Part shown: one piece after another, positions 42,234 to 57,662 of the stretch
How the letters are laid out: the number at the start of each line of letters is the position of its first letter
How positions within the stretch are numbered: position 1 is the first letter of the stretch
Source: Bacteroidota bacterium
GTDB taxonomy: Bacteria > Bacteroidota > Ignavibacteria > Tepidaquicellales > Tepidaquicellaceae
Assembly (NCBI GenBank): GCA_018266845.1
Contig: JAFDZO010000019.1
Location: forward strand, 1 to 64,000
Length of the DNA: 64,000 nt
Reading direction: 5' to 3'
The notes under the pieces: generated by a model
Database searches by the model: none
What the model was told of the DNA's origin: nothing
Seen by the model: only the letters and a program-made list of their open reading frames with translations
Program-made: the position numbers and the translations under genes

Positions 42234-45200
42234 TTATTTAAGTAACAACATTTTTTTTGTTTGAATAAACTCTCCTGCCTGAAGCCTATAGAAATATGTG
42301 CCCGAAGATAATGATGCGCCGTTCATATCAATTGTGTAATACCCTGACTGATAAAGTTTATTATCAATAAGAGATGCTATCAGTTTTCCCGTTATGTCAT
42401 AAATCTCAAGGGTAACATTAACTGCTTCGGGAATATTAAAACTTATTTTCGTTGAGGGGTTAAACGGATTCGGATAATTTTGCGATAAAGCAAATTTTTG
42501 CGGAACCCCAACACTCACTTCGTTCTGCAATGCGTAATATTTATAGTTACCATTGTTATCTATTTGCTTGAGTCTGTAGTGATACTTTCCCGTGGCGAGA
42601 TTTTTATCCTCATATTTATAATTTACTTGCGCATTGGAATTTCCCGCGCCGTTAATAAAACTTATTTTTTTCCAGCTTGTATCGGAAGATGATTTTCTTT
42701 CAATTTCAAATCCTCTGTTGTTTTGTTCCTGCGAAGTGCTCCAGTTTAGAGTAACATCGTTTTTAGAAACGGAACTATTGAAAGAAGAAAGCTCGACAGG
42801 CATCGGCTGTGAATTGGTTGACGAAAGAGCAAAGAAATCAAAATCAGAACAGTATTCAGATGTAACATACCCTGAGGATGGTGTTCCGTAGCGTGTTACA
42901 TTACCCTTGTTTTCCCATTGGGAACCGTTCCAGCGGGCTATTCTAAGGCTGTCAATATTGCTTACACCGCTTTCAGGACCGAAACTTAATCCAACATAAG
43001 CTCCAATAATTGAAGTAAATTTATTTATAAAATAGTATTCATTGCTGCTAATGTTATTTATCCCCGGACCATACGTTGATCCGATTGTATGCGGGTCTTG
43101 AGTATCATATTGGACAATCCACTGGGAAGGGGTAACGTCAGCTGGTTGGAAATACAAAGATCTTAACTTTCCGTTTTTGCCAAGAGGGATAATTTTCGTT
43201 AATGTTGACTTTGTAAATAATCTAACCGGAGCTTCAATGTATGATGTACTTGTTGCGCCTTTATAGGCAGTTGTATCGGTGAATTGCAAATAAACCAAAG
43301 TCGAATTTACTTTTCCCTGAACAAATCTTAAAGTATCGGTAATTGTAACTATTTCGTTAATGGTAATTCCGTTAGGATTGTTTATTACAAGGTTTGGAAT
43401 GTTCGGCATTGGTGTAGTTCCTGCCTTGTATAGTTTTTGGTTTTCATATCCTGCAAGTTCAAGCATACCGCCGTCTTCAAACGTAATATTTTGGAGGTTG
43501 TGAAGTTCAAAGTTAATTCCCTCTTTGTTTCTGATAATTATTTTGCCTCCGCTTTTTACTCTTATTCCCATTCCTCTGAACGCAAACGTATCACAATCCA
43601 AAACTCCTCCTTCGTTTACTTCGAGGAAATCTACAGCGTTGAATGGCTGATTAATTGAGTTATAAAAATTTGTTTTTAAAACTACTGTATCACCGAACCA
43701 GATTTCATTTGGGTAGTTTGATGTCCCTATATTATAAACCGGCTGGTCAGCAGGTTGATAACTTGAGATAAAGTGTTTTCTGTTAAGGGATATGCCGCCA
43801 AATTTCAAAGTTCCTTTACCTGCAATCACATTTTCTTCTGAATGAATCTTACCTCGTTGTATATCAAGATTGCCGTTAATAGATAATGAACCTGCTGTGG
43901 AGTTAAACGGCTGGCTTGTTCCGAAAGAAAGATTAATAACAGGATTTGCATCGGGCGCAATTAATGAATCTCCGAGTTGCAAGTTTCCTCTAATAAACAT
44001 TGGAAAAAGAGAAGGATTTTCGTTGCCTTCTCCTACAAGACATAATTCATATCCTGAAGATTGAATGTACTGCAAATTCCGGCAGAAATAATTTGAGGGT
44101 AAAAATTTAGAATTTCTCCATCTCCCGTTTACTCCCGGGTCGGCGAGGTTGGTAAAATTTATTACAAGGTTTGACAATTGTGATTGCAAGCCATCTCTGA
44201 TAGCATTTGCTGTATCAGACCACATTGTGATATTGAATGTAGATTTTTCCGAGAAGCTTTCTTTTCCGGCAAAGATTGAGTTCGCCGCCACACCAATATT
44301 ATTATGATTGTAAGTGCAACTATCGTACAGCTCAAAATTTCCTAAATTTATTATCGGTTGATTTGAAGTAATCTGCCCGTTTCCAGTAAGGCGCAGAATG
44401 GTTTTAATTGAAAATACTATTGAGCTGTTAAAAACTGCGTTTTTATTTTGAGGTACATGGAAAATTTCGTATCTATCGGAACTCTGCGGACTTGCTCCTG
44501 TACCGTCAGCATTTCTTTTCCAGCTTGTGAGTGATGCTGCGTTTCCTGAATTATAAAAGTAGTATTCGTAAATACCTCTTTGCAAACCAACCACGTATTT
44601 ATTGTTCGTATTGAATTCGCTAAATATACCATTGTTTCCAATTGCAAAAGTGTTTGAGGAGCGCGAAATGGTAGTATCAAATGTTCCTGAAAAAGGAGGT
44701 TCAAAAACTGCAGCATCGTGCGGCTTATATCCATTATAAGAACCTTCATTATAAACTCCAACGTCTCCAAAGTCCGGCTTATCGTATGTTTTGTTAAAAT
44801 TTGAACCTTCATCCGAACGCCTCCATTGAAACAACAATCTAAGCACACTTCCGCCGGGAATATTCTCGACTATATCCCATGTTTTTCTTATGCAGCAGCT
44901 TGTATCGGAGGGCATTGCGGAAGGGTCAAACCCGCTTTTAACTCTTATTGAAAATGTGTCCGCAGTATGAGCAACAGTAGGGGCTAACCAAACGGGACTA
45001 TAGGTTGTATTTCCGACAGGTATTTTTGGGAATTCGTTACTTGGTACAAAAGTTTTGAAGTAACCATTGCCATTTGTATTTATAAAAGTATTTACATTTA
45101 CTCCGGTAATATATGTAACGTTTGGAACGATTAAATTGTAATCTCCTAAATTTAGTGTGCCTGAAGTAAGGTAAAGGTCAGATGTTTTTAGATTTTTGCT

Positions 45201-46424
45201 AAGGGTTACCCCGGAGGGATTATTAATTTCAATGCTTGGAAATATATACGGCATTCCTAAACCTGTTACCTGCGGCGTTCCGCCTGCAAAACTTATTAAG
45301 GAACTGTTTGAAATATTCACTATTCCACCTGTGGCAATGTTACCGGAGTAGCCGTCAGGGCTTCTGAAAAAGATTTTCGTATTATTAGTTGCGGTAAATG
45401 AAATGAGTCCCGTAAGTTTTGCATATTGAAAGTCTATGTATGTGCGGACAGAACCATTGCCGCCCTCTGCATATAATCCGCCAAGCGCGCTGAAACCGAT
45501 ACTGCCTATATCGGATAGGAGTCTTAATGAACAGCCAAAAGGTACATAGAGTTGTACATCTCCAGAAATACTTATTGGCAAATAGTTGTAAAAAGTCTGA
45601 TAGGTTGTATCAAAGGAATCAATTTGTTTCACAAAACTTATCCTTCCGTATTTAGCACCCGAAGTTACAATGCTGCCGCCGTTCTGAATAAAATTTTTGG
45701 ATAGTCGCATATCCATTCCAAAAGAACCGCTGCCAATAGAATTTGTAGATAAATCTAAAGTTCCTCCGTTTTGAATATAATCACCTTTAATCCTGACAAC
45801 CTGCTGCTCTCCAACATCGTGAGAAGGATAATGGAAAAGAAACTTACCGGTGCCGGTGCTATTTAAAACAAAATTATTTTCGCATAAAATAAGATTCGGA
45901 TTCCATATATATTGGTACCACATTCCTGAATTTAAAGTCCAGTTGATTTCCAGATTTCCAAAATACCTGTTGAAAAGATTATAATTAACGCCGTTGATTA
46001 TTGATTCATTAACGCTGCTCCAATTATCAATTCTTACTGTGCTATACTTATTAAAACTTTCATATCCTTTGAAAATAGTTTGAGAAGCAATTGACACATT
46101 ATTGTTTACGTAGAGCGCTCCGCTATCTAAGTAAAGAACGGAATTAGAATCCATCTGAACAGATAAGTCATTTTGCAATGTTGCTCCGTGCAGTACTACG
46201 AGTCTCCAGCCATGAAAATACCATGGCGAAAAAACTGTTGCAGTTTTTCCGGTTGGAATTACATAATCTACGTTTTGAGCAAAATCTACTGCATTTGTGC
46301 CGCTGCCATCCGGCATAGTGTTCCAGTTAGCCGGATCAGCGGGAGAGCCGGACTGGTAGTAATAGTTCTGCGCCTCTGCGCCTGAGAAAATTAGTAATAT
46401 GAAAATGAATACTAATGTTTTCAT
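42234..46424 (-). CDS. Giant T9SS-exported surface protein (paralogue A)
   Basis: 1396 residues. Signal peptide MKTLVFIFILLIFSGAEAQN, then a long beta-rich body made of repeated strand-turn units (GGILELAG-, IINGVNYN-like), suggesting a parallel beta-helix or filament. An Fn3-like segment (ELSSFNSSVSKNDVTLNWST, QNNRGFEIERKSSSD) is near 1230, and the C-terminal type IX sorting domain includes FALSQNYPNPFNPSTKISFN and ends IQTKKMLLLK. It is a surface or released protein. A paralogue with the same plan lies at 48461-52660. Confidence 0.9.
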   Translation of the reverse strand: MKTLVFIFILLIFSGAEAQNYYYQSGSPADPANWNTMPDGSGTNAVDFAQNVDYVIPTGKTATVFSPWYFHGWRLVVLHGATLQNDLSVQMDSNSVLYLDSGALYVNNNVSIASQTIFKGYESFNKYSTVRIDNWSSVNESIINGVNYNLFNRYFGNLEINWTLNSGMWYQYIWNPNLILCENNFVLNSTGTGKFLFHYPSHDVGEQQVVRIKGDYIQNGGTLDLSTNSIGSGSFGMDMRLSKNFIQNGGSIVTSGAKYGRISFVKQIDSFDTTYQTFYNYLPISISGDVQLYVPFGCSLRLLSDIGSIGFSALGGLYAEGGNGSVRTYIDFQYAKLTGLISFTATNNTKIFFRSPDGYSGNIATGGIVNISNSSLISFAGGTPQVTGLGMPYIFPSIEINNPSGVTLSKNLKTSDLYLTSGTLNLGDYNLIVPNVTYITGVNVNTFINTNGNGYFKTFVPSNEFPKIPVGNTTYSPVWLAPTVAHTADTFSIRVKSGFDPSAMPSDTSCCIRKTWDIVENIPGGSVLRLLFQWRRSDEGSNFNKTYDKPDFGDVGVYNEGSYNGYKPHDAAVFEPPFSGTFDTTISRSSNTFAIGNNGIFSEFNTNNKYVVGLQRGIYEYYFYNSGNAASLTSWKRNADGTGASPQSSDRYEIFHVPQNKNAVFNSSIVFSIKTILRLTGNGQITSNQPIINLGNFELYDSCTYNHNNIGVAANSIFAGKESFSEKSTFNITMWSDTANAIRDGLQSQLSNLVINFTNLADPGVNGRWRNSKFLPSNYFCRNLQYIQSSGYELCLVGEGNENPSLFPMFIRGNLQLGDSLIAPDANPVINLSFGTSQPFNSTAGSLSINGNLDIQRGKIHSEENVIAGKGTLKFGGISLNRKHFISSYQPADQPVYNIGTSNYPNEIWFGDTVVLKTNFYNSINQPFNAVDFLEVNEGGVLDCDTFAFRGMGIRVKSGGKIIIRNKEGINFELHNLQNITFEDGGMLELAGYENQKLYKAGTTPMPNIPNLVINNPNGITINEIVTITDTLRFVQGKVNSTLVYLQFTDTTAYKGATSTSYIEAPVRLFTKSTLTKIIPLGKNGKLRSLYFQPADVTPSQWIVQYDTQDPHTIGSTYGPGINNISSNEYYFINKFTSIIGAYVGLSFGPESGVSNIDSLRIARWNGSQWENKGNVTRYGTPSSGYVTSEYCSDFDFFALSSTNSQPMPVELSSFNSSVSKNDVTLNWSTSQEQNNRGFEIERKSSSDTSWKKISFINGAGNSNAQVNYKYEDKNLATGKYHYRLKQIDNNGNYKYYALQNEVSVGVPQKFALSQNYPNPFNPSTKISFNIPEAVNVTLEIYDITGKLIASLIDNKLYQSGYYTIDMNGASLSSGTYFYRLQAGEFIQTKKMLLLK

Positions 46425-46773
46425 GTTGTTGTATTTTGTTTTGATAAAAAAAATTTATTAACTTTACTTTTAGGGAGCTATAAGAAATGCCCTGCCAAGC
46501 TAAGACAGGGCGTTCCTTTTTGTTAGCGCAGGATAAACCAAAGTTCATCTTTGCGTGGAATGAAACTCTTTTGATTAAATTTTGATGTGCAATTAATGTG
46601 ATTCATGATAAACTTGTTTACTACGCTAACGTGTGCAAATTATATAGTATTTATCTTTTCAACAAAGAAAGTTTTTTGAAAATTAACCACAGAAGCAGCG
46701 CTGATTTTAAAAAAAGCATCATTTAACCGCCATATATTAATAGTGGTTACAGCTTGCTCCATTAACAACCTAT
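46425..46773. other. Divergent intergenic region of module A
   Basis: 349 bp between the divergent T9SS gene and helical-protein gene. It holds the leader inverted repeat and hairpin (46489-46630). It must contain both promoters; I do not see a confident consensus for either. Confidence 0.7.
46489..46630 (-). promoter_or_regulatory. Candidate structured leader of T9SS gene A
   Basis: Reading the minus strand toward the start at 46424: GTTAGCG (46624-46630), 95 nt, CGCTAAC (46522-46528), then a hairpin CGCCCTG...CAGGGC (46489-46512). The closing helix is only 7 bp and could be chance. The layout of closing helix then hairpin then start codon is the same as in the other T9SS leader. Confidence 0.4.
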
Positions 46774-48237
46774 ATGCATACGCACATTGCAATTGAGCTT
46801 TTAAAAACATTTAATGATGAAGAATTAAATAGATTTGGAGACTTTGTTCGCTCGCCGTTTTTTAATAAAAGAGAGGCGGTGATAAAACTATTTGATTTGA
46901 TTTCCAAGTATTCGCCTGAATACACGAGTTCTGCATTAAAGAAAGAGAATATTTATAAGAAGATATTTCCCGGGAAAAAATATAACGAGCAAACGTTACG
47001 AAGCAGGATGTCAGAGCTATCAGCGCTTATAAAGACATTTATGATTGAAGTAAATTTTAAAGAGGATATCTTTTATCAGAAAAAAAAATATACGAAGGAA
47101 CTTGTTAAAAGAAGAAAATTTGATTTAGCCGAAAGGAGTATTTCTGAAACTGACGAATTTTTGAAAAATTCTCATCAAAATAAAGAAATAAGTGATTTGA
47201 ATTTTTTATACTCTAAACGAGTTAATGTGGATAATTATATTTCCCTGATGCACGCAAAGGATTGTAATATAGAAGCAATGGGAAAGGCATCGGAGCAAGG
47301 AGAATTTTTAATTCATAATTTTCTGCTGGAAGTATTAGCGTGCAATAGTGATGTAATCTGTTACGAGATAGAAACAAAAAAGAAATTTGAAGATAGTTAT
47401 GTTAAATCTTTTTTTGAGAAATTTGACTTTGAAGGGTATATTAATTTACTTAAGGAAAAAAATTACAGGTTTTACCCGATAATAGCAGTCTATTATTATG
47501 GAAATTTAGCTCAAAATCATCCTGACAGTGAGCGTTACTTTTATGAGCTTAAAAATTTAGTTTATGAGTATCATAATCAGTTTAGCAAAACAGAGTTATC
47601 AAATTACTGGGTAATGCTTTCCAATAGCGCTTATACAAATTTTATAAAGTATGGCACAAAGTTTAAACTTGAAGGGCATGAAGTAAATAAATTTTTCATA
47701 GATAATAATCTTTATGATGAGAATAATCCGTTCTCTGTTTCAGGTTATCAGAATATAGCTGTAAATGCTTTAAATGTCGGAGATTTGGATTGGGGGGAAG
47801 AGTTTCTGGAAAAATTTAAGAATAACTTCCTGCCTGAACTTATTGACAGCAGGTACCATTATTGTAAGGCAATTTTTTTGTTTGAAAAGAAAAAATTTGA
47901 AGATGCTATTGAAAATTTAAGCAAAGTTAAGTTTACAGACTGGAATATTAAGTTGGAAATAAGATTAAATTATCTTAAAAACTATTATGAACTCAGTATG
48001 AGCGAACAGGTATTTTCATTAATTGATTCTTTTAAACATTTTGATTCAAACAATCCCGATATAGCCCCTGAATACATGGATGAAAAAATAAAAAATACTA
48101 TCCGATATATAAGTAAAATATCCAATGCGAAATTTGGAGGCAAGCAGCTTGATTACGCGGCTTACAAAGAAATGGAAGATACCCGAAACGTTCTTTACAA
48201 AAAATGGATACTTGAGAAGATGAAGGAATTGATATAG
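46774..48237 (+). CDS. Unrecognised helical protein paired with the T9SS gene (paralogue A)
   Basis: 487 residues, no signal peptide or membrane segment; almost entirely charged alpha-helix with TPR-like spacing in the second half (YHYCKAIFLFEKKKFEDAIE). The N-terminus LLKTFNDEELNRFGDFVRSP, FFNKRE and NEQTLRSRMSELSALIKTFM is shared with the 486-residue gene at 52970. The family appears in Bacteroidetes-type genomes without an assigned role. It is divergently transcribed from the T9SS gene. Confidence 0.75.
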   Translation: MHTHIAIELLKTFNDEELNRFGDFVRSPFFNKREAVIKLFDLISKYSPEYTSSALKKENIYKKIFPGKKYNEQTLRSRMSELSALIKTFMIEVNFKEDIFYQKKKYTKELVKRRKFDLAERSISETDEFLKNSHQNKEISDLNFLYSKRVNVDNYISLMHAKDCNIEAMGKASEQGEFLIHNFLLEVLACNSDVICYEIETKKKFEDSYVKSFFEKFDFEGYINLLKEKNYRFYPIIAVYYYGNLAQNHPDSERYFYELKNLVYEYHNQFSKTELSNYWVMLSNSAYTNFIKYGTKFKLEGHEVNKFFIDNNLYDENNPFSVSGYQNIAVNALNVGDLDWGEEFLEKFKNNFLPELIDSRYHYCKAIFLFEKKKFEDAIENLSKVKFTDWNIKLEIRLNYLKNYYELSMSEQVFSLIDSFKHFDSNNPDIAPEYMDEKIKNTIRYISKISNAKFGGKQLDYAAYKEMEDTRNVLYKKWILEKMKELI

Positions 48238-48312
48238 TTATTATTTTAGCGAATCATATTCTTGTGAATTATTTGCAGATAGTAGTCACTGTCGCTCAAT
48301 AATAGTTGTACA

Positions 48313-48344
48313 AAAAAGGATTACCAAATTCTGATAATCCTTTT
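48313..48344. terminator. Bidirectional terminator between module A and module B
   Basis: AAAAGGATTA / TAATCCTTTT inverted repeat between the convergent ends of the helical-protein gene and the second T9SS gene. Confidence 0.8.
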
Positions 48345-48460
48345 AAGTTAAGTAAGGTTAGTTATTTTGTAAAATTTCGAGAGTTTTTATTCTGTTCGAT
48401 TCTAATTGCGCTTATTCGGATGAAATTTATACCATAGTATGTCGAACTATTTTCTCTCTT

Positions 48461-51400
48461 TTATTTTATTAATGTCATTTTTTTCGTCTGCGTAAAATCC
48501 TTTGCTGTTATTCTATAAAAGTAAGTTCCACTCGAAAGCTCCGCAGTGTTAAAATCTACCGTGAAATAGCCGGCTTTCTTTGCTTCATTATTAATCAATA
48601 CTGCCATCTCCTTTCCCGTCATATCGTAAACTTTTATTGTTACGTTTGCATCTACAGGCAGACTAAAATTTATCTTTGTTGCCGGATTAAACGGATTCGG
48701 ATAATTCTGCGAAAGCTCAAACTTAGCCGGAATGCCTACAGTAACATTCGACTGAAGATTGAAATAATGATAATTCCCATTGTAGTCAATCTGCTTTAAC
48801 CTGTAATTGAATGTACCCGCTGTGAGATTTCTATCTTCGTACTCATATTGCTTAGGTGAAGAAGAACTTCCGGTTCCGGCAATAAAATTTACTTTGCTCC
48901 AGTTTGTATCCTGAGTTGATTTTCTTTCTATTTCAAATCCTGAGTTATTCTGCTCAGTTTCAGTTTTCCATTTGAGATTTACATTGTTACCATTTACGGA
49001 TGCTGAAAAAGAGGCAAGCTCTACAGGAAGCTGCTGCCCGTCAGTTGATGCAATTACAAAAGGGCTGAACTGTGTAATCATGTTTGAGTAAACAATACCA
49101 CCTGTTGCATCGCCTGAATAGTTTGAATTTCCCTTATCTTCCCATTGGAAGTCATTCCATCTGGCAACACGAAGATTAGCGGGATTTGTAACTCCGCTGT
49201 TTGCTCCCCATGTAAGACCAATGAATGCATTGGAAGGCGAAGCCCCGCTTCTGTTGATTAAAAAATATTCATTATTGCTGATAGATGTAATCCCTGCACT
49301 TAGTGTATTGCCGAAAGCCTGCTGCTGATTAAAATATTCAACTGTCCAGTCAGTCGAGTTTGAATTTGCAGGTGTAATAACCAGATTTCTCTGGTTGCTT
49401 CCTTTGCCCAACGGAATTGTAACAGTGTTCATCGAAGTTGTATTTACTTTTAAAGGACCGTTAATAAATGAATTTGTATTAACTCCGTAAAACTGTACGT
49501 TTTCATTTACAGACAGGTAATTCAAATTACTGGAAATTAATTTTCCGCTGATGAATGTTATTGAGCCGGTGATGCTGACATCAGGAACATTCACAGTAAC
49601 ATCATTTGGATTATTAATTATAAGATTCGGTATGGATGCTAGGTTATATGCTCCGGCTTTTTCTAAATTCTGCGGTGTGCTGCCTGCAAATTCCAGAGAC
49701 GCATTTGATTCAAATGTTACATTCTGGTTTGCAAGGTCGGCATAAAATCCTTCGGGGTTTTTCGTGATGAGCTTTCCGCCGTTTTTGATTTTTAAATTTA
49801 AGCTTCTTATTCTATACACATCTGTATTTAATGCTGCGCCGGACTCAACCTGCCAGGCATCTGTAAACAAAAACGCCGGATTTCCTGAGCGGTACATGTC
49901 ACTCTTCAATGTCAATGTATCAGATTCAATTCTGTTAGGAAAAGCATTATTGCCTAAATTTGAAGTCTGCCAGAGAAATGGATTGAAGCAGTAAAATGTA
50001 TGACTTTTTGGGACGTTCATTGTCTCTCTTGCAAAAACAATTCTTCCTCTTGCGACAGCAGGGAAATCCTGTGAAGTGAGTCCACCGTTTTGAATATCAA
50101 GATTACCATTTATTACTAATGTCCCGGCAGTTGTATCCACCGCTCTCGTTGTTCCGCCTGAAAGATTCATAATAGGAAAAGCAGTATTATTCAGAGAGTC
50201 GCCAATCTGAACATTGCCGGTAACAATAAATTTTGTCAAAACGCTGCCGAATCCTATCGGCGCAAATTGATAACCGGATGACTGAAGGTAAGTTAAATTT
50301 CCTCTTACTGTATATTCTGTGCGGTAAGGCAAAGCATCGTTTTTGAATACTGTCCAATAGTTATTTGAACCGAAAGGAGCGGGGAGATTATCAAAGTTTA
50401 TAACGAGATTCCCATATCCTGATTCTAAATTATCAAAAGCTTTATCCGTTGTATCTGACCATTTAAGAATTTTGAAAGTACTTTTACTTGAAAAGAACTC
50501 ACGCCCTCCAAAAGAAGACTGCCCCGGCGCAATAGTGTTATTATGATTATAAACCGAACTATCTTTTAACTCAAGTATTCCGTTGACAAAAAGCGGTGCA
50601 TTGGCATTTATAATTCCGCTGCCGCTGCTGCGAAGCCATGCTTTATCTGTTAATGTTGCGCTGTTATCGAATGATGCCGTTCGTCCCGAGGGCACAGAAA
50701 ATATTGCATACCTGTCAAAACTGGGAGGATGCAGCCCGTTAAGAGAAGTCCAGCTACCTAAAATAGAAGCATTACCTGTATTATCAGGATAGTATGTCTC
50801 GAATACTCCGTCCTCATTGCCAAATACATAATAATCATCTCCAGAGGTAACATATGATAATCCTCCGCTAAGAGCTTTTGATATGGATGAATCAGGCGGA
50901 ATATAAAAATTTTCTGCAATATGTACGATTGAAGGTCTGTATCCGTTGTAGCCTCCTGCTTCATATTGTCCAACGGCGAATATAGAATTTAAATCCATGT
51001 TGACTCCTATATCATTTTTCATAAACTGGGCGTAAGCTCTGAATGATGTAGGGTTGCTTGGATTTTCATCGAAAACTCTCCATAGTTTTCTTACACATCT
51101 TGACGTATCAAACGGAGCGTGTGAGCCGAAACTGTTTTCAACTCTTATTCCGATTGTATCTGTATTTCCTGTATAAGCCTGAGTAATATAAAACGGGCTG
51201 AAAGTTCCGTTTCCTACCGGAAACTTTGCGGTGTATCCCTGATTAAGACCGATTCGTAAAACTCCAGTTCCGTTTGTATTGAAGAAGCTATTTTCATTTA
51301 CTCCTTTAATACTGTCAGGAGATGCAATTTTGAAATTGTAGTTCCCTAAGTTCAATTTCCCCTGTATAAAGCTTAACGTAGATCTCTCTCCCATTCGTAT

Positions 51401-52660
51401 ATCCTTGCTTAGAGTTACTCCGTTTGGATTATTAATAATAACACGCTGGTCTTGATTGTTGGGTGTAACATCTTTTAAATTTTCTGGCAATGAATCTCCT
51501 GTCATTTGAGCAGTTGAGCCGCAATACTCAAAGGTGGACCCAATAAAATTTTTTTGTCCTGAAATAGGAAAATCTCCGCCCGAAATTCCATTTTTAAATC
51601 CTTCCGCGCTTCTTAATTTTAATGTTGATTGATTAATCTGACAAACTGTATTTCCGGTTACTTTGTAATTATTGCAGTCTATTGTAGAAAGGGTTGCCGT
51701 AAAAACGCACTGTGGATTTGAAGTAAACACAGGGAAATCGCTCAGCAATTTAATTTTACATGAGTTAATTGAAATACCGTTGTTTCTAAATGTTCCTGTA
51801 TTTTCAAAAGTATTATACTTTGATGAATCTAAAGTACTAAATACAATTATTCCATAAGTTGTTACTGAATTTGCATCTATAATGCCTCCTGTTTTCTGAA
51901 AATTTCCTGCTACGTTAATAATAGAGGCAAAGCCGTTAGTAACGGGAGAACCTAAAGCTAAATCTACTTCCCCGCCTGTTTGAATATAAGTATTAACTTT
52001 TATAAACGAGCCACTCCCCGGAGAATTTGGACTGGGTATTAAGATTTTACCTATACCTGAACCAGTAACTCTAAAATTATTTCCTGCTAATAGATACAGA
52101 CTATTTAGTGAATTCTTATTCATATTCCAATTTCCGGTTTGACTTACCCAGTCAAGTTCAAGATTGCCAAATAAATAATAGTTATTAGTTTGCCCTGAAT
52201 AATTTATAGCTGTGCTCATTATGGGGTCATTTAAACCTGACCAGTTTTTAATAATAAAATTGCTGTGCTTGTGAAAATTTTCCGTACCATTAAAAAGAGT
52301 ATTGTTTGCAAAACTTGTTGTGTTGTTAATCAAAGTTCCGTTTGAATCAATTCTCAATGTTGTTCCAGTTCCCATATTGAGCGTATGATTTACTTGTAAT
52401 GTTGCTTCAGAATTGACTCTGAGAGTTGCAGAATTATCAATGAACCATTGGAAGTCAAGCACTGCTGTTTTGCCGGATTCAATAATGTATTCGGTATTTT
52501 CGCCAAAGCTTGAGGGCGGAGTGCCGGCGCCTCCCGGCTGATTTCCCCAGTTTGCTACAAGACTTGGAATGCCGGAATTGTAATAATAGGGCTGGGCATT
52601 ACTTTCCGCACAAAATAAAAATAGCGCGAAAAGAGATAAAATTAGAATAAAGTTTTTCAT
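48461..52660 (-). CDS. Giant T9SS-exported surface protein (paralogue B)
   Basis: 1399 residues from the ATG at 52660. Signal peptide MKNFILILSLFALFLFCAES, ending NAQ. The long beta-rich body includes the same phrases as paralogue A (INNPNGVTLSKDI, ILELKDSSVYNHNN, TAGTLVINGNLDIQ). Fn3-like part ELASFSASVNGNNVNLKWKT, then T9SS sorting domain with FELSQNYPNPFNPATKINFS and end FTQTKKMTLIK. A 56-codon longer frame upstream runs through the leader hairpin and is rejected. Confidence 0.9.
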   Translation of the reverse strand: MKNFILILSLFALFLFCAESNAQPYYYNSGIPSLVANWGNQPGGAGTPPSSFGENTEYIIESGKTAVLDFQWFIDNSATLRVNSEATLQVNHTLNMGTGTTLRIDSNGTLINNTTSFANNTLFNGTENFHKHSNFIIKNWSGLNDPIMSTAINYSGQTNNYYLFGNLELDWVSQTGNWNMNKNSLNSLYLLAGNNFRVTGSGIGKILIPSPNSPGSGSFIKVNTYIQTGGEVDLALGSPVTNGFASIINVAGNFQKTGGIIDANSVTTYGIIVFSTLDSSKYNTFENTGTFRNNGISINSCKIKLLSDFPVFTSNPQCVFTATLSTIDCNNYKVTGNTVCQINQSTLKLRSAEGFKNGISGGDFPISGQKNFIGSTFEYCGSTAQMTGDSLPENLKDVTPNNQDQRVIINNPNGVTLSKDIRMGERSTLSFIQGKLNLGNYNFKIASPDSIKGVNENSFFNTNGTGVLRIGLNQGYTAKFPVGNGTFSPFYITQAYTGNTDTIGIRVENSFGSHAPFDTSRCVRKLWRVFDENPSNPTSFRAYAQFMKNDIGVNMDLNSIFAVGQYEAGGYNGYRPSIVHIAENFYIPPDSSISKALSGGLSYVTSGDDYYVFGNEDGVFETYYPDNTGNASILGSWTSLNGLHPPSFDRYAIFSVPSGRTASFDNSATLTDKAWLRSSGSGIINANAPLFVNGILELKDSSVYNHNNTIAPGQSSFGGREFFSSKSTFKILKWSDTTDKAFDNLESGYGNLVINFDNLPAPFGSNNYWTVFKNDALPYRTEYTVRGNLTYLQSSGYQFAPIGFGSVLTKFIVTGNVQIGDSLNNTAFPIMNLSGGTTRAVDTTAGTLVINGNLDIQNGGLTSQDFPAVARGRIVFARETMNVPKSHTFYCFNPFLWQTSNLGNNAFPNRIESDTLTLKSDMYRSGNPAFLFTDAWQVESGAALNTDVYRIRSLNLKIKNGGKLITKNPEGFYADLANQNVTFESNASLEFAGSTPQNLEKAGAYNLASIPNLIINNPNDVTVNVPDVSITGSITFISGKLISSNLNYLSVNENVQFYGVNTNSFINGPLKVNTTSMNTVTIPLGKGSNQRNLVITPANSNSTDWTVEYFNQQQAFGNTLSAGITSISNNEYFLINRSGASPSNAFIGLTWGANSGVTNPANLRVARWNDFQWEDKGNSNYSGDATGGIVYSNMITQFSPFVIASTDGQQLPVELASFSASVNGNNVNLKWKTETEQNNSGFEIERKSTQDTNWSKVNFIAGTGSSSSPKQYEYEDRNLTAGTFNYRLKQIDYNGNYHYFNLQSNVTVGIPAKFELSQNYPNPFNPATKINFSLPVDANVTIKVYDMTGKEMAVLINNEAKKAGYFTVDFNTAELSSGTYFYRITAKDFTQTKKMTLIK

Positions 52661-52969
52661 AATATTTTTACTTAAATTCTCAAAAAAAGGCGTGCACAAA
52701 ATGCGCACGCCCTTCGACATCGTAAGGAATAATTTAGCATTACTACTTACGTTAATTTTTGTTTGCTGATTGAATCGGGAGCAATTCCTGATTGTAAGGA
52801 ATGAAAATTGTATTTTTGAGTATGCCATAATTTTTACGATGTCGCATGCAAGTTAAAAATGATTTGGTGCCCGTTCAAAGAAAAATTTTTCGTAAATAAT
52901 AAAAAAACCATGGAGGATTTCCTTTTAAATATGTGTGTAACAGCTATTTAATTGGTAAAATTGTAAGAA
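52661..52969. other. Divergent intergenic region of module B
   Basis: 309 bp between the divergent genes, mostly occupied by the structured leader of the T9SS gene (52682-52844). No further gene is seen. Confidence 0.7.
52682..52844 (-). promoter_or_regulatory. Candidate structured leader with terminator, T9SS gene B
   Basis: On the minus strand: CGACATCGTAA (52834-52844), 108 nt, then its exact complement TTACGATGTCG (52715-52725), then at once a GC-rich hairpin GGGCGTGC...GCACGCC followed by TTTTTTT (52682-52711), 22 nt before the ATG at 52660. The hairpin plus T-run is a textbook intrinsic terminator placed inside a leader. The 11-bp perfect closing helix suggests an attenuator or riboswitch-like fold. 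The inner loop holds further short inverted repeats (ATTCC...GGAAT). Confidence 0.6.
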
Positions 52970-54430
52970 ATGATAAATCACAAAATATTTGATACTTTAA
53001 AGAGTTTTGACGAAAACTACCTTAAACGGTTGAGAGATTTTACCAACTCGCCGTATTTTAACTCAAATAAAAAAGTAAAGGAATTATTTGAAATTATTTA
53101 TTCCGCCAAGCCGGAGTTTACAGGAAAGAAGCTTGAGAAGAAAAATCTGATAGCGAAATTTTTCCCCGTAAAAGAAAAAAATTCGGAACAGCTTTTGAAA
53201 AATTTATTTAGCGAGCTTTCAGGACTGGTCAAAGATTTTTTGGTGCATAACGGCTTGCAGAGAAATGAATATGTAAGAGAAAATTTATATCTGGATGAAT
53301 TATTTTATCTTTCAAAATTTAGTGACGGAGTAAAGCAGTCAAATAATCTTATAGCGAAATATAAAGGCGACCAGCTTTTCAGTCCGCATTATTTTGATTC
53401 ATATTCAAAAGCAATTTCTAATTTATCAAGATGTCTTTATATGGAAGGCAGGAGCTTTGAGACGGAAGGGCTTTCAGAAAAATCTTATGAAATTTTTATC
53501 TTAAAATTTATTTACGACTTTATTGATCTAAAGAACAGCGTTGCGCTATATGATAAGTCTGGTAATGCTATTGAAATTCCCGAGTTTATAACAAAGTTTC
53601 AAAACAGTTTTAATCTTGCCGAAATAGTTGAAAGCTTAAAAAAATACAATCGGAATTATGCAGGTATATTAGATGCTTACAGTGATATGGATGAGATGCT
53701 TGGACGTGAAGATAACTCTGAAATTTTTTTAAAGCTGAAGCAGAAAGTTTTTGCGAATATTGATAAAGTTTCATATGAAGAAAAATATTTTTTATATACG
53801 GTCCTCACCAATAATGTTTATTCCAATCTTGGTGCAGCAAAGCCGGAATATTATAAAGATGCCTTTGAAATTGTAAAATTCTTTTTAGAAAAGGAAGTTT
53901 TTTTGTATCCGGGCTCACCGTATATGCTTACCTTAAACTATGAAAACATCGCATCCTGTTCATCATTTATGGAAGATAATGTTTGGACCGAAAATTTTCT
54001 AATTGAATACAAAAAATTCCTGAATCCTGAATTGAGAGATATGATTTTTAATAAGTCTATGGCAAGTTTTAAACTGGGTATAAGAGAGTTTGATGACGCG
54101 CTTAAATATATAAACTGCTACAAAGCAGGGGATGTTTATGAGAAAGTATATGTAAAATTTTATATAATAATAATTTTTTATGAAAAAGGAGATTTGGAAC
54201 GCTCGCTTTACGAGCTTGATACACTTCTTCACTATGTAAACTATAACGATGATAAGCTTCCAAAAAATCTTGAAGCAGTGTTAAGAAATACAGTACCTGC
54301 TCTCAAAAAAGTGATAACCACTAAAGCTAACTATAAAAAAATTGATTACGCGGATTTTAAAGCATTTCAAGAAACGCCAAATATTTATTTCAAAAACTGG
54401 ATAATTAAAAAAATGGAGGAATTGTTGTAA
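52970..54430 (+). CDS. Unrecognised helical protein paired with the T9SS gene (paralogue B)
   Basis: 486 residues, cytoplasmic by sequence. N-terminus TLKSFDENYLKRLRDFTNSP, YFNSNK and NSEQLLKNLFSELSGLVKDF matches paralogue A, and both end in a ...KKWILEKMKEL(I) / KNWIIKKMEELL motif. Charged helical repeats with many Lys/Glu. Divergent from the T9SS gene as in module A. No catalytic motif is visible. It may be a regulator or assembly factor of its neighbour, but that is inference from conserved pairing only. Confidence 0.75.
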   Translation: MINHKIFDTLKSFDENYLKRLRDFTNSPYFNSNKKVKELFEIIYSAKPEFTGKKLEKKNLIAKFFPVKEKNSEQLLKNLFSELSGLVKDFLVHNGLQRNEYVRENLYLDELFYLSKFSDGVKQSNNLIAKYKGDQLFSPHYFDSYSKAISNLSRCLYMEGRSFETEGLSEKSYEIFILKFIYDFIDLKNSVALYDKSGNAIEIPEFITKFQNSFNLAEIVESLKKYNRNYAGILDAYSDMDEMLGREDNSEIFLKLKQKVFANIDKVSYEEKYFLYTVLTNNVYSNLGAAKPEYYKDAFEIVKFFLEKEVFLYPGSPYMLTLNYENIASCSSFMEDNVWTENFLIEYKKFLNPELRDMIFNKSMASFKLGIREFDDALKYINCYKAGDVYEKVYVKFYIIIIFYEKGDLERSLYELDTLLHYVNYNDDKLPKNLEAVLRNTVPALKKVITTKANYKKIDYADFKAFQETPNIYFKNWIIKKMEELL

Positions 54431-55368: not shown

Positions 55369-57375
55369 ATGAATGCTAATTACTTTTTTCTATGTAAAAG
55401 TTTATTTAACTCTATTAGAGTTACTTCAGATATGTTTCAAGATTTTGTTAAACAACCTGTTCGCTATAATTCCTTTATTAGAAATAAAAGCTGGAGTGAA
55501 CTTAAAAGACACAGTTTACAAGATATTTTAAAATCTTTTTATTACATCAATTTGATGCAAAAAGATGTTAAAAAGTTTTACATGTTAAGAAAAGTAAATA
55601 GTTTAAATTACAATAAGTGCGTTAAATTAATTGAACAATTATTTGATAAAAAGAATTCTGAAATACTAAAAAAAATAATTACTAAAGAAGAAAAAAATCA
55701 AAAGAATAGAGAAGCTATTTTAAACTTTAAAAGTCTTAGAAAAAAGATTGATGGAAATAAGATTATAAAAATAACTCAGAAAGTTTTTAGTAGTGATAGC
55801 TTAAGTCAAAATTTATTGTATTCTATAAACTCTCAAATTCATTTTGCAAAAAATGCATTTGAAACTTTGATGAAGGTTTCAATGACGGATTCAAGAAAAT
55901 ATTTTGAATCGTCCAAGTTTATAATAACACAGAAAGATTTTAAACTTTTAGTTCGTAATTACCGGAATTTTCAAGCACAATTAAATTATTTACAAAAAGA
56001 AATATACCTAAACTCAATTAAAGATAAAACAAAAGTAAAATATGCTCTTCAGAATTTAACTCACTGGGTAACTCAAAACTTTGAGGAGCTTATTAAATTA
56101 AATTCGTTTGCTCAGTATTTGTGCAGTAAGCAAAACAAAGAAGACAGAAGTTTTTATGAAAAACAAAAGATTTGTATTTCATGTAGTATGTTGGCAAGAG
56201 AAACTATTGCAAGTTATATTTCTGCAACTATAATGTTATATGAAGTTCTCGGTGTTAATCTCAATAGAAATACTAATGAAATTCTTAATTCCGCTCTTTT
56301 CATACCTTTTAATGGGAAAATTCAGATTGGCAAAAAAAGTGATTTTAAAAGAATAAACAGATTGCCAAATAATATGCTTGTTTCTGTTTTTGGAATCTTA
56401 AAATCTACAGATATTGTAAAAAAAGGTAGAGTGTTATATTATAAAGGTGTTCTATTTGATGATAAAAGTAAAAAAACAATTACAATTTATACCAAATCAA
56501 ATTTTGTTGAAGAAGGACTAACAATTGGGAGTTTGATAAGAATAACTGGAAAACTGTTAAAAGAAAACACCCTTAATAAAACACCGTGTATTGAAGTTGA
56601 ACAACTAAAGATTCAGGAACATTATAAAGATCAATTTTGGAAAATTGCTTTTTTAAATAATTCCTCAGGATATTATAATTATTGGTTGCAATATCTTAAC
56701 ATAGACTTCACTTATAATCCCGAAGACCTTTCTAAAAACTCTGTCACTGCTGAATCTCAATCAAATTGTGATCAGGAATATCTGGATTATCTTAATTTAT
56801 GTATAGAGTATGATGAAGCTCAAGAAGATTTTACTATATCAGAAGCTGAAGTAATAGGAGCTCAAACTGCAGCTTTAATTTCATGTGTTGTTGGAGGAGT
56901 TTGGACGGGTGGTGCATCTTGTATCTTGGCTACTATAACTCTTGCTATTGCTATATTTCATGCAGAAGCAGAAAAGAAAAAGGTAGATAAGGCTAAAGAA
57001 AAAATGGATAAGGCTAGAAAAAAATGGCAGGACTGTATAAATCCTATTTCAGGGATTGGGAATATAGGTATAGGAAATATTGGAATAGGGAATATAGGTG
57101 TAGGAAAAATAGGTGTAGATCGTACAGGGTCAGGTAATACGGGAAGTGGAAACACTGGAAATGGAAATATTGGAATTGGAAATACTAGCATAAGTAGTAT
57201 TGGTAGAGGGACATCAATTGACGGATTTGCTAATTTCAGCTTCAATTCATTTTATTCTGAAGATAATAGTGAAAGCGTAGATAATTGGAATGAAGATACT
57301 TCCATAGATGAGGGTACGAGTATTCCAGATAACAATACAGATGAACCGAGTGAAGAAGGAAGTTATATAGTTTAG
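55369..57375 (+). CDS. Unrecognised multidomain protein with Gly-Asn pentapeptide-like repeats
   Basis: 668 residues. A Lys-rich helical N-half (about 1-310) leads to a probable OB-fold-like beta segment (about 340-430: NNMLVSVFGILKSTD, RITGKLLKEN). A hydrophobic hairpin follows at about 500-532 (VVGGVWTGGASCILATITLA), then a charged coiled-coil. A tandem repeat of GIGNI/GxGNT units occupies about 562-614, and the tail is acidic. The repeat resembles the NxGxGN repeats of mycobacterial MPTR proteins by composition only. No signal peptide. Function unknown. Confidence 0.7.
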   Translation: MNANYFFLCKSLFNSIRVTSDMFQDFVKQPVRYNSFIRNKSWSELKRHSLQDILKSFYYINLMQKDVKKFYMLRKVNSLNYNKCVKLIEQLFDKKNSEILKKIITKEEKNQKNREAILNFKSLRKKIDGNKIIKITQKVFSSDSLSQNLLYSINSQIHFAKNAFETLMKVSMTDSRKYFESSKFIITQKDFKLLVRNYRNFQAQLNYLQKEIYLNSIKDKTKVKYALQNLTHWVTQNFEELIKLNSFAQYLCSKQNKEDRSFYEKQKICISCSMLARETIASYISATIMLYEVLGVNLNRNTNEILNSALFIPFNGKIQIGKKSDFKRINRLPNNMLVSVFGILKSTDIVKKGRVLYYKGVLFDDKSKKTITIYTKSNFVEEGLTIGSLIRITGKLLKENTLNKTPCIEVEQLKIQEHYKDQFWKIAFLNNSSGYYNYWLQYLNIDFTYNPEDLSKNSVTAESQSNCDQEYLDYLNLCIEYDEAQEDFTISEAEVIGAQTAALISCVVGGVWTGGASCILATITLAIAIFHAEAEKKKVDKAKEKMDKARKKWQDCINPISGIGNIGIGNIGIGNIGVGKIGVDRTGSGNTGSGNTGNGNIGIGNTSISSIGRGTSIDGFANFSFNSFYSEDNSESVDNWNEDTSIDEGTSIPDNNTDEPSEEGSYIV

Positions 57376-57662
57376 GTATTTTTAAAAATTAACTTTTTTT
57401 CATAATTAATATTGCTGTATTTCAATATTTTTTTCTGAGCATAAATATCTACAAATTTTCCGGTTTTTTTTTGAAGTTCTAACTGACATTTTTTAATATC
57501 AAGATTGAATGTTTTATTATAATCTATTTCTACATATAAATCTATGTCACTTTTAAAATCTGCATCTCCTCTTGCGTAAGAACCGAAAATAAAAACTCTT
57601 TTGACAGGAAGTGCTTTAAAATAGTTTTTAATAATTTTAATATTTTTATTACTTAAAACCAT
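57372..57662 (-). CDS. MNT-type nucleotidyltransferase domain protein
   Basis: 96 residues. Minimal nucleotidyltransferase with FIFGSYARGDADFKSDIDLY (GSx10DxD) and a second acidic residue in KFVDIYAQKK. Such proteins usually pair with a HEPN toxin and AMPylate it, but no HEPN gene is adjacent. It is convergent with the 668-residue gene and overlaps it by four bases. Confidence 0.85.
   Translation of the reverse strand: MVLSNKNIKIIKNYFKALPVKRVFIFGSYARGDADFKSDIDLYVEIDYNKTFNLDIKKCQLELQKKTGKFVDIYAQKKILKYSNINYEKKLIFKNT

Follow-up and report, generated by a model that had tools for sequence, protein, structure and literature searches.

A family of divergent gene pairs in Tepidaquicellales, joining a TPR-like helical protein to an exported, usually T9SS-sorted partner, as candidate units of local surface-protein control

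Introduction

Regulators of the RRNPP type (Rgg, PlcR, NprR and AimR) combine a small N-terminal helical domain with a TPR-like solenoid, and are often encoded beside the gene that they control. In Bacteroides, SusCD loci are accompanied by ECF sigma/anti-sigma systems, local regulators that are paralogs of one another, number in the dozens and adjoin one surface-protein locus each. Structured 5' UTR regulators, such as riboswitches, leaders and ompA-type 5' stems, place a 5'-terminal stem and a hairpin or pseudoknot before the start codon. Organisms with a T9SS may have well over 100 sorted surface proteins, and how each of these is controlled is largely unknown. PorX/PorY-SigP exerts global two-component and ECF control over the T9SS secretion machinery (PMC8265659).

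Here, we describe a gene pair that shares features with all of these systems, found twice in a stretch of 64,000 nt (the window; positions 1-64,000, forward strand, of contig JAFDZO010000019.1) from Bacteroidota bacterium GCA_018266845.1 (GTDB lineage Bacteria; Bacteroidota; Ignavibacteria; Tepidaquicellales; Tepidaquicellaceae). One member belongs to a family of cytoplasmic helical proteins (487 and 486 aa in the window) that we call HEL. Like RRNPP regulators, HEL has a small N-terminal helical domain and a TPR-like C-terminal solenoid, as judged from an AlphaFold model and profile matches, and adjoins its presumed target; it differs in having no HTH, XRE-type or other, by Pfam, in its 30-50 copies per genome, and in its T9SS cargo partners and leader RNA. 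As with the ECF systems, HELs are dozens of paralogs that each adjoin a surface-protein locus, but their partners are T9SS cargos, their partners' promoters look like housekeeping rather than ECF promoters, and they carry no sigma or anti-sigma domain. Since the defining domains of both groups are missing, we do not file HEL with either. The leaders found in these pairs resemble structured 5' UTR regulators in layout; they differ in having no Rfam match, in varying in sequence between classes while keeping their structure, and in being tied to one facing protein family. PorX/PorY-SigP likewise regulates T9SS genes, globally (PMC8265659), whereas HEL would offer one dedicated protein per cargo. 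In a limited search of libraries and open-access literature, both the HEL and the leader families appear to be undescribed.

Results and discussion

Two gene pairs in the window

The two pairs comprise the following genes, whose coordinates and sizes had been correctly given in the initial annotation of the window.

42234..46424, minus strand: giant exported protein 1, 1396 aa, with a signal peptide and a T9SS type A sorting domain at residues 1317-1393
46774..48237, plus strand: HEL1, 487 aa, a TPR-like helical protein with a conserved N-terminal SPFFN...P domain
48461..52657, minus strand: giant exported protein 2, 1398 aa from the signal-peptide Met, with a T9SS type A sorting domain
52970..54430, plus strand: HEL2, 486 aa, a TPR-like helical protein

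Both giants carry the type A sorting domain well above threshold (TIGR04183, 40.5 and 43.9 bits against a cut-off of 23; PF18962, 39.2 and 42.7 against 27). The same genome encodes the T9SS translocon SprA in one frame (929.5 bits) and has at least 150 sorting-domain genes, based on scoring 150 of 290 candidates. The giants are 38% identical across 1352 aa and the HELs 26% identical across 491 aa, and both protein pairs are thus paralogous. The claim that every part of the module is paralogous between the copies holds for these proteins; the leaders have a common architecture and no detectable sequence similarity.

Size and spread of the HEL family

Far from being a pair of copies, as the window alone had suggested, the family runs to roughly 30-50 copies per genome. 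A single query finds 34 matches in the source genome (3.53 Mb, 46 contigs) and a profile finds 36, while a congener has 45 and a genome from another family of the same order has 50. HEL is present in 39 of 40 relatives, the source genome counted, and in just 4 of 99 genomes of a phylum sample, the source again included and at most 16 candidates scored per genome; because it is so rare there, the family looks concentrated in the order Tepidaquicellales. When contigs were scanned with the single HEL1 query no match was obtained, and with a tight HEL alignment 16 Ignavibacteria loci were recovered; named matches come from MAGs of Ignavibacteria, Chlorobi bacterium OLB5 among them. That the helical protein belongs to no described family was borne out, in that no family in Pfam, NCBIfam, PADLOC or PHROGs covers it. 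On sequence grounds, then, the two window loci belong to an extensive, order-wide gene-pair family, and some 30-50 pairs per genome suggest that a great many surface proteins are each controlled separately.

Divergent pairing with exported proteins

Among 93 HELs with a visible 5' neighbor in three genomes, 74 have a divergent one, including 43 T9SS cargos and 17 genes with exported-looking N termini; a further 9 of the 93 are the second member of a HEL tandem (genes were called mechanically and signal peptides judged by hydropathy). A divergent T9SS cargo is thus the 5' neighbor of 43/93 HELs compared with 9/474 other genes at the same loci (Fisher p = 1e-29, a guide only, because HEL copies are related by descent and not independent). 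Where the 5' neighbor is a T9SS gene, it is divergent for HEL in 43 of 45 cases and for other genes in 9 of 50. The conserved pairing proposed from the window is therefore upheld: the contrary pattern, with HELs lying mostly away from T9SS genes, was looked for, and instead 43 of 93 face such a gene and 17 more face one that looks exported. In one set of orthologous HELs (L125-L132), the divergent neighbor is mostly the same ~603-aa protein, and what lies on the 3' side varies. About one fifth of HELs have no divergent 5' neighbor, which counts against a regulatory role.

The giant beta-helix protein named as the partner in the initial annotation is found in both window copies; across the family the partner need not be such a giant and is a varied exported protein, usually a T9SS cargo and sometimes a lipoprotein. 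A module specific to the giants was rejected, as the partners are mostly unrelated exported proteins, and a relative of the giants in one other genome (G102) has no adjoining HEL.

The partner promoter

Read from HEL toward the partner, most of the intergenic regions contain TTTCTTTG, 20 nt and TAnnTTTG, which fits the housekeeping-type Bacteroidota promoter with TTTG near -33 and TAnnTTTG near -7 (PMC7366714). Using a generic consensus that was not tuned on the partner set, exact TTTG-N19-21-TAnnTTTG occurs upstream of 28/64 partners, compared with 2/50 other T9SS cargos, 3/81 HELs and 7/234 other genes. The window giants have the following predicted promoters, the first placed by a published box position rule (PMC9723704).

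46635..46670, minus strand: predicted promoter of giant 1, TTTCTTTG-N20-TAATTTGC
52848..52883, minus strand: predicted promoter of giant 2, TTTCTTTG-N20-TAACTTGC

Both, together with the ortholog of giant 2 in the congener, have TAnnTTGC instead of TAnnTTTG, a box that resembles SM5, a motif that in Flavobacterium psychrophilum is reported to precede gliding genes (PMC9723704).

Two further features of these regions were observed. In the congener, a tandem duplication takes in part of one HEL promoter region and shows as repeated GTCCCAAACCCCTGTTTGGGACG blocks (L116:5583-6145). Five HEL-partner gaps (L049, L092, L098, L103 and L106) contain a palindromic GTGCAC followed by an ORF of ~50-60 codons with a common ISKGYRLKPETH-like start; this ORF has no Pfam match and perhaps encodes a small DNA-binding protein.

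Structure and proposed role of HEL

The AlphaFold prediction (22 sequences, mean pLDDT 87) is an all-helical, TPR-like solenoid of 24 helices, with a conserved helical N-terminal domain of ~100 residues followed by TPR-like repeats. The best PDB profile matches are consensus TPR proteins, and NprR and an arbitrium receptor are among the weak fold matches; Foldseek returned nothing below E 0.001. Modeled alone, the N-terminal 102 aa have the CadC winged-helix domain as the top PDB match (rmsd 1.8 over 48 columns), which at E = 3.4 is not significant, and the DNA-binding domains of TcpP and SaeR rank lower, with worse and likewise non-significant E values. The domain is weakly basic and its model has no predicted wing strands. 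When 22 N-terminal domains were searched against Pfam, no HTH or other DNA-binding family came up even with E allowed to reach 10. The lack of any known DNA- or RNA-binding domain in HEL by Pfam and NCBIfam counts against a regulatory role; no sigma or anti-sigma domain was found with the same libraries.

The reading that we favor, and to which we give about even credence from sequence comparisons, is that HEL acts as a dedicated local regulator of the facing gene, at its promoter or its leader. By sequence, each pair consists of a cytoplasmic alpha-solenoid HEL and, across an intergenic region that the two divergent genes share, a partner that has a strong promoter there and encodes an exported protein, usually a T9SS cargo; in about a third of pairs the predicted 5' UTR can fold right from the first nucleotide (a closing helix, then a hairpin or pseudoknot). 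By acting on promoter or transcript leader, HELs would control dozens of surface proteins one by one, and the body of the surface protein can be swapped by recombination while HEL and promoter stay, as seen at one locus. We infer the regulation itself, its direction and any binding of DNA or RNA; local regulation is what best explains four features together, namely a dedicated divergent cytoplasmic protein, promoters of a special class, leaders that go with HEL and not with the cargo, and exchangeable bodies. If each of dozens of cargo genes has a dedicated partner protein, a promoter class of its own and RNA folds at the 5' end, T9SS control would gain a layer at the level of single cargos, and an unannotated family with 30-50 copies per genome would gain a role.

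The solenoid fold would also suit a HEL that serves in the cytoplasm as a chaperone or secretion pilot, keeping the T9SS protein encoded opposite it unfolded or handing it over to Sec, since TPR proteins often bind other proteins, the partners are exported, and the weak TPR-type matches of HEL include BamD and PilW. We consider this possible, if unlikely: the layout is divergent and not operonic, the partner bodies are unrelated or have been exchanged beside a conserved HEL, and the promoter class and leader of the partner are left unexplained. Such a chaperone could possibly recognize only the common C-terminal region (~190 aa) of its partners.

What travels with HEL

In two bacterial families, the type of leader goes with the clade to which the HEL belongs. 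All nine HELs with leaders of class R1, from the source genome and the genome of the other family, fall in one 27-member clade (support 95), which also contains HEL2 of the window and some leaderless members; the pseudoknot leader classes B, C, D and G are in a different clade. HEL1 and its closest relative (L036) are 50% identical and have a leader family in common, and their partners have no similarity outside the sorting domain. Co-inheritance alone is no proof of function, because linked genes duplicate together.

At one orthologous locus (L043/L116), identity is 87-94% for HEL and the promoter region. DNA homology ends at the partner start codon, and the bodies of the surface proteins differ, with similarity returning only in the last 187 or so residues; HEL thus stays with the promoter and not with the product. 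In these T9SS cargos of unrelated body (L043:4740-5300 and L116), the C-terminal ~190 aa are 61-78% identical, beyond the sorting domain, and this common region could, by its sequence, serve as the homology for body exchange. Copies of the pair turn over rapidly between congeners: the congener retains giant 2 (67% identity) and HEL2 (59.5%) in divergent arrangement at a different place, and at the congener site that matches the window the module is absent.

Rapid turnover, the module missing from the matching site and the body exchange would all fit a purely evolutionary unit, in which HEL has a function unrelated to its neighbor and the divergent block is a handy recombination unit for diversifying surface proteins. 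Such a unit does not account for the fact that two bacterial families preserve the same orientation and the special promoter class, nor for a leader type that follows HEL clade, and we regard it as distinctly unlikely.

Structured leaders

Placing the -7 box at -12 to -5 (PMC9723704) puts the predicted +1 at 46630 for giant 1 and at 52843 for giant 2, and defines the following leader features, with both start sites inferred.

46425..46630, minus strand: leader 1, predicted 5' UTR of giant 1, ~206 nt
46624..46630, minus strand: leader 1 closing helix, 5' arm GTTAGCG, beginning at the predicted +1
46522..46528, minus strand: leader 1 closing helix, 3' arm CGCTAAC
46489..46511, minus strand: leader 1 hairpin, GCCCTGTC...GGCAGGGC (p ~0.02 against shuffles)
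52658..52843, minus strand: leader 2, predicted 5' UTR of giant 2, ~186 nt
52834..52844, minus strand: leader 2 closing helix, 5' arm CGACATCGTAA, beginning at the predicted -1/+1
52715..52725, minus strand: leader 2 closing helix, 3' arm TTACGATGTCG
52689..52712, minus strand: leader 2 hairpin, GGGCGTGCGCATTTTGTGCACGCC, then T7

Both leaders consist of a 5'-terminal closing helix and then a hairpin. They do lie in the intergenic stretches to which they had been assigned, confined there to the minus-strand predicted 5' UTRs (~46425-46630 and 52658-52843), and start-site anchoring and compensatory changes support the initial annotation in treating them as a probable RNA feature. The giant-2 ortholog keeps the closing helix, and its hairpin differs by two double-sided changes and two one-sided ones, none of which breaks pairing.

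Across the family, a closing helix (score >=22) with its 5' arm at the predicted start is found for 29% of 107 partner promoters, compared with 2% of shuffles and 3.7% of position-shifted controls, and for 10/44 partners compared with 0/44 other genes with such a promoter, where the promoter score behind these starts was tuned on partners. The enrichment of inverted repeats is weak without promoter anchoring and clear once anchored. Arms vary in sequence between leader classes while complementarity is kept. A hairpin follows the closing helix in both window leaders and in L036, L087, L144, L148 and others; classes TTCGGCTATG, GGCTATATGATGC, CTAATGGCGTT and others have a pseudoknot between the loop and a downstream strand. 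At p <=0.05 each, 18 of 41 leaders have the pseudoknot pairing and 15 the hairpin, with ~2 of each expected by chance.

Neither window leader matches Rfam 15 above the gathering threshold, and a sensitive search gave scores far below it; the leaders of HEL pairs would add structured RNA families that Rfam lacks. At E <0.01 and in loci picked for HEL, a covariance model built on the GTTAGCG/GATAGCG leaders matches only beside HEL genes and recovers L146, which was outside its training set, and the giant-2 ortholog (L191); a cmsearch with leader model R1 places leader 1, one of its training sequences, at 46478-46631. The shared leader layout is real for both window copies and not universal: several pairs in the source genome are leaderless, with a predicted 5' UTR of just ~30-40 nt, so a leader is not required for a HEL-partner pair.

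Two other readings of the leaders were tried and not adopted. The open frame of giant 2 extends beyond the signal-peptide Met to 52828, leaving 56 leader codons stop-free in frame and free of indels in both species (window 48461-52828; L191:4075-8436); the differences by codon position are 23/12/15, and with no third-position excess this pattern does not support a coding leader. Short ORFs in other leaders are, by eye, broken in relatives. An intrinsic terminator or attenuator, suggested by a hairpin and T-run in leader 2 and its ortholog, was not adopted in general, since most other leaders lack them.

If the inverted repeats were DNA recombination sites, serving an invertible switch or cassette exchange, and not RNA structure, their arms of 7-17 bp would be within the size range of invertible elements and body exchange at one locus would be in keeping. 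We nonetheless find this very unlikely: the promoter is not flanked by repeats as in an inverton, the 5' arm lying at the predicted +1 with the predicted promoter outside; the giant-2 hairpin stays paired through compensatory changes; the pairs downstream are interleaved, giving pseudoknots; and at the exchanged locus itself the predicted 5' UTR is just a short one. A toxin-antitoxin or defense module might also be suggested by the number and diversity of the copies, their rapid turnover and an RNA element beside a protein gene; the lack of any PADLOC or PHROGs match for HEL, the lack of a plasmid match and the identity of the partners as T9SS cargos and lipoproteins make it extremely unlikely.

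Within the favored reading of HEL as a local regulator, the family might constitute a new class of RNA-binding solenoid regulators, each recognizing the 5'-terminal fold of the mRNA whose start lies next to the HEL gene itself. We hold this to be rather unlikely; if true, dozens of cognate protein-leader pairs per genome would switch surface proteins singly.

Outside the two pairs, the window encodes at 57372-57662 (minus strand) a small protein that by eye resembles an MNT-type nucleotidyltransferase (FGSYARGDADFKSDIDLYVE).
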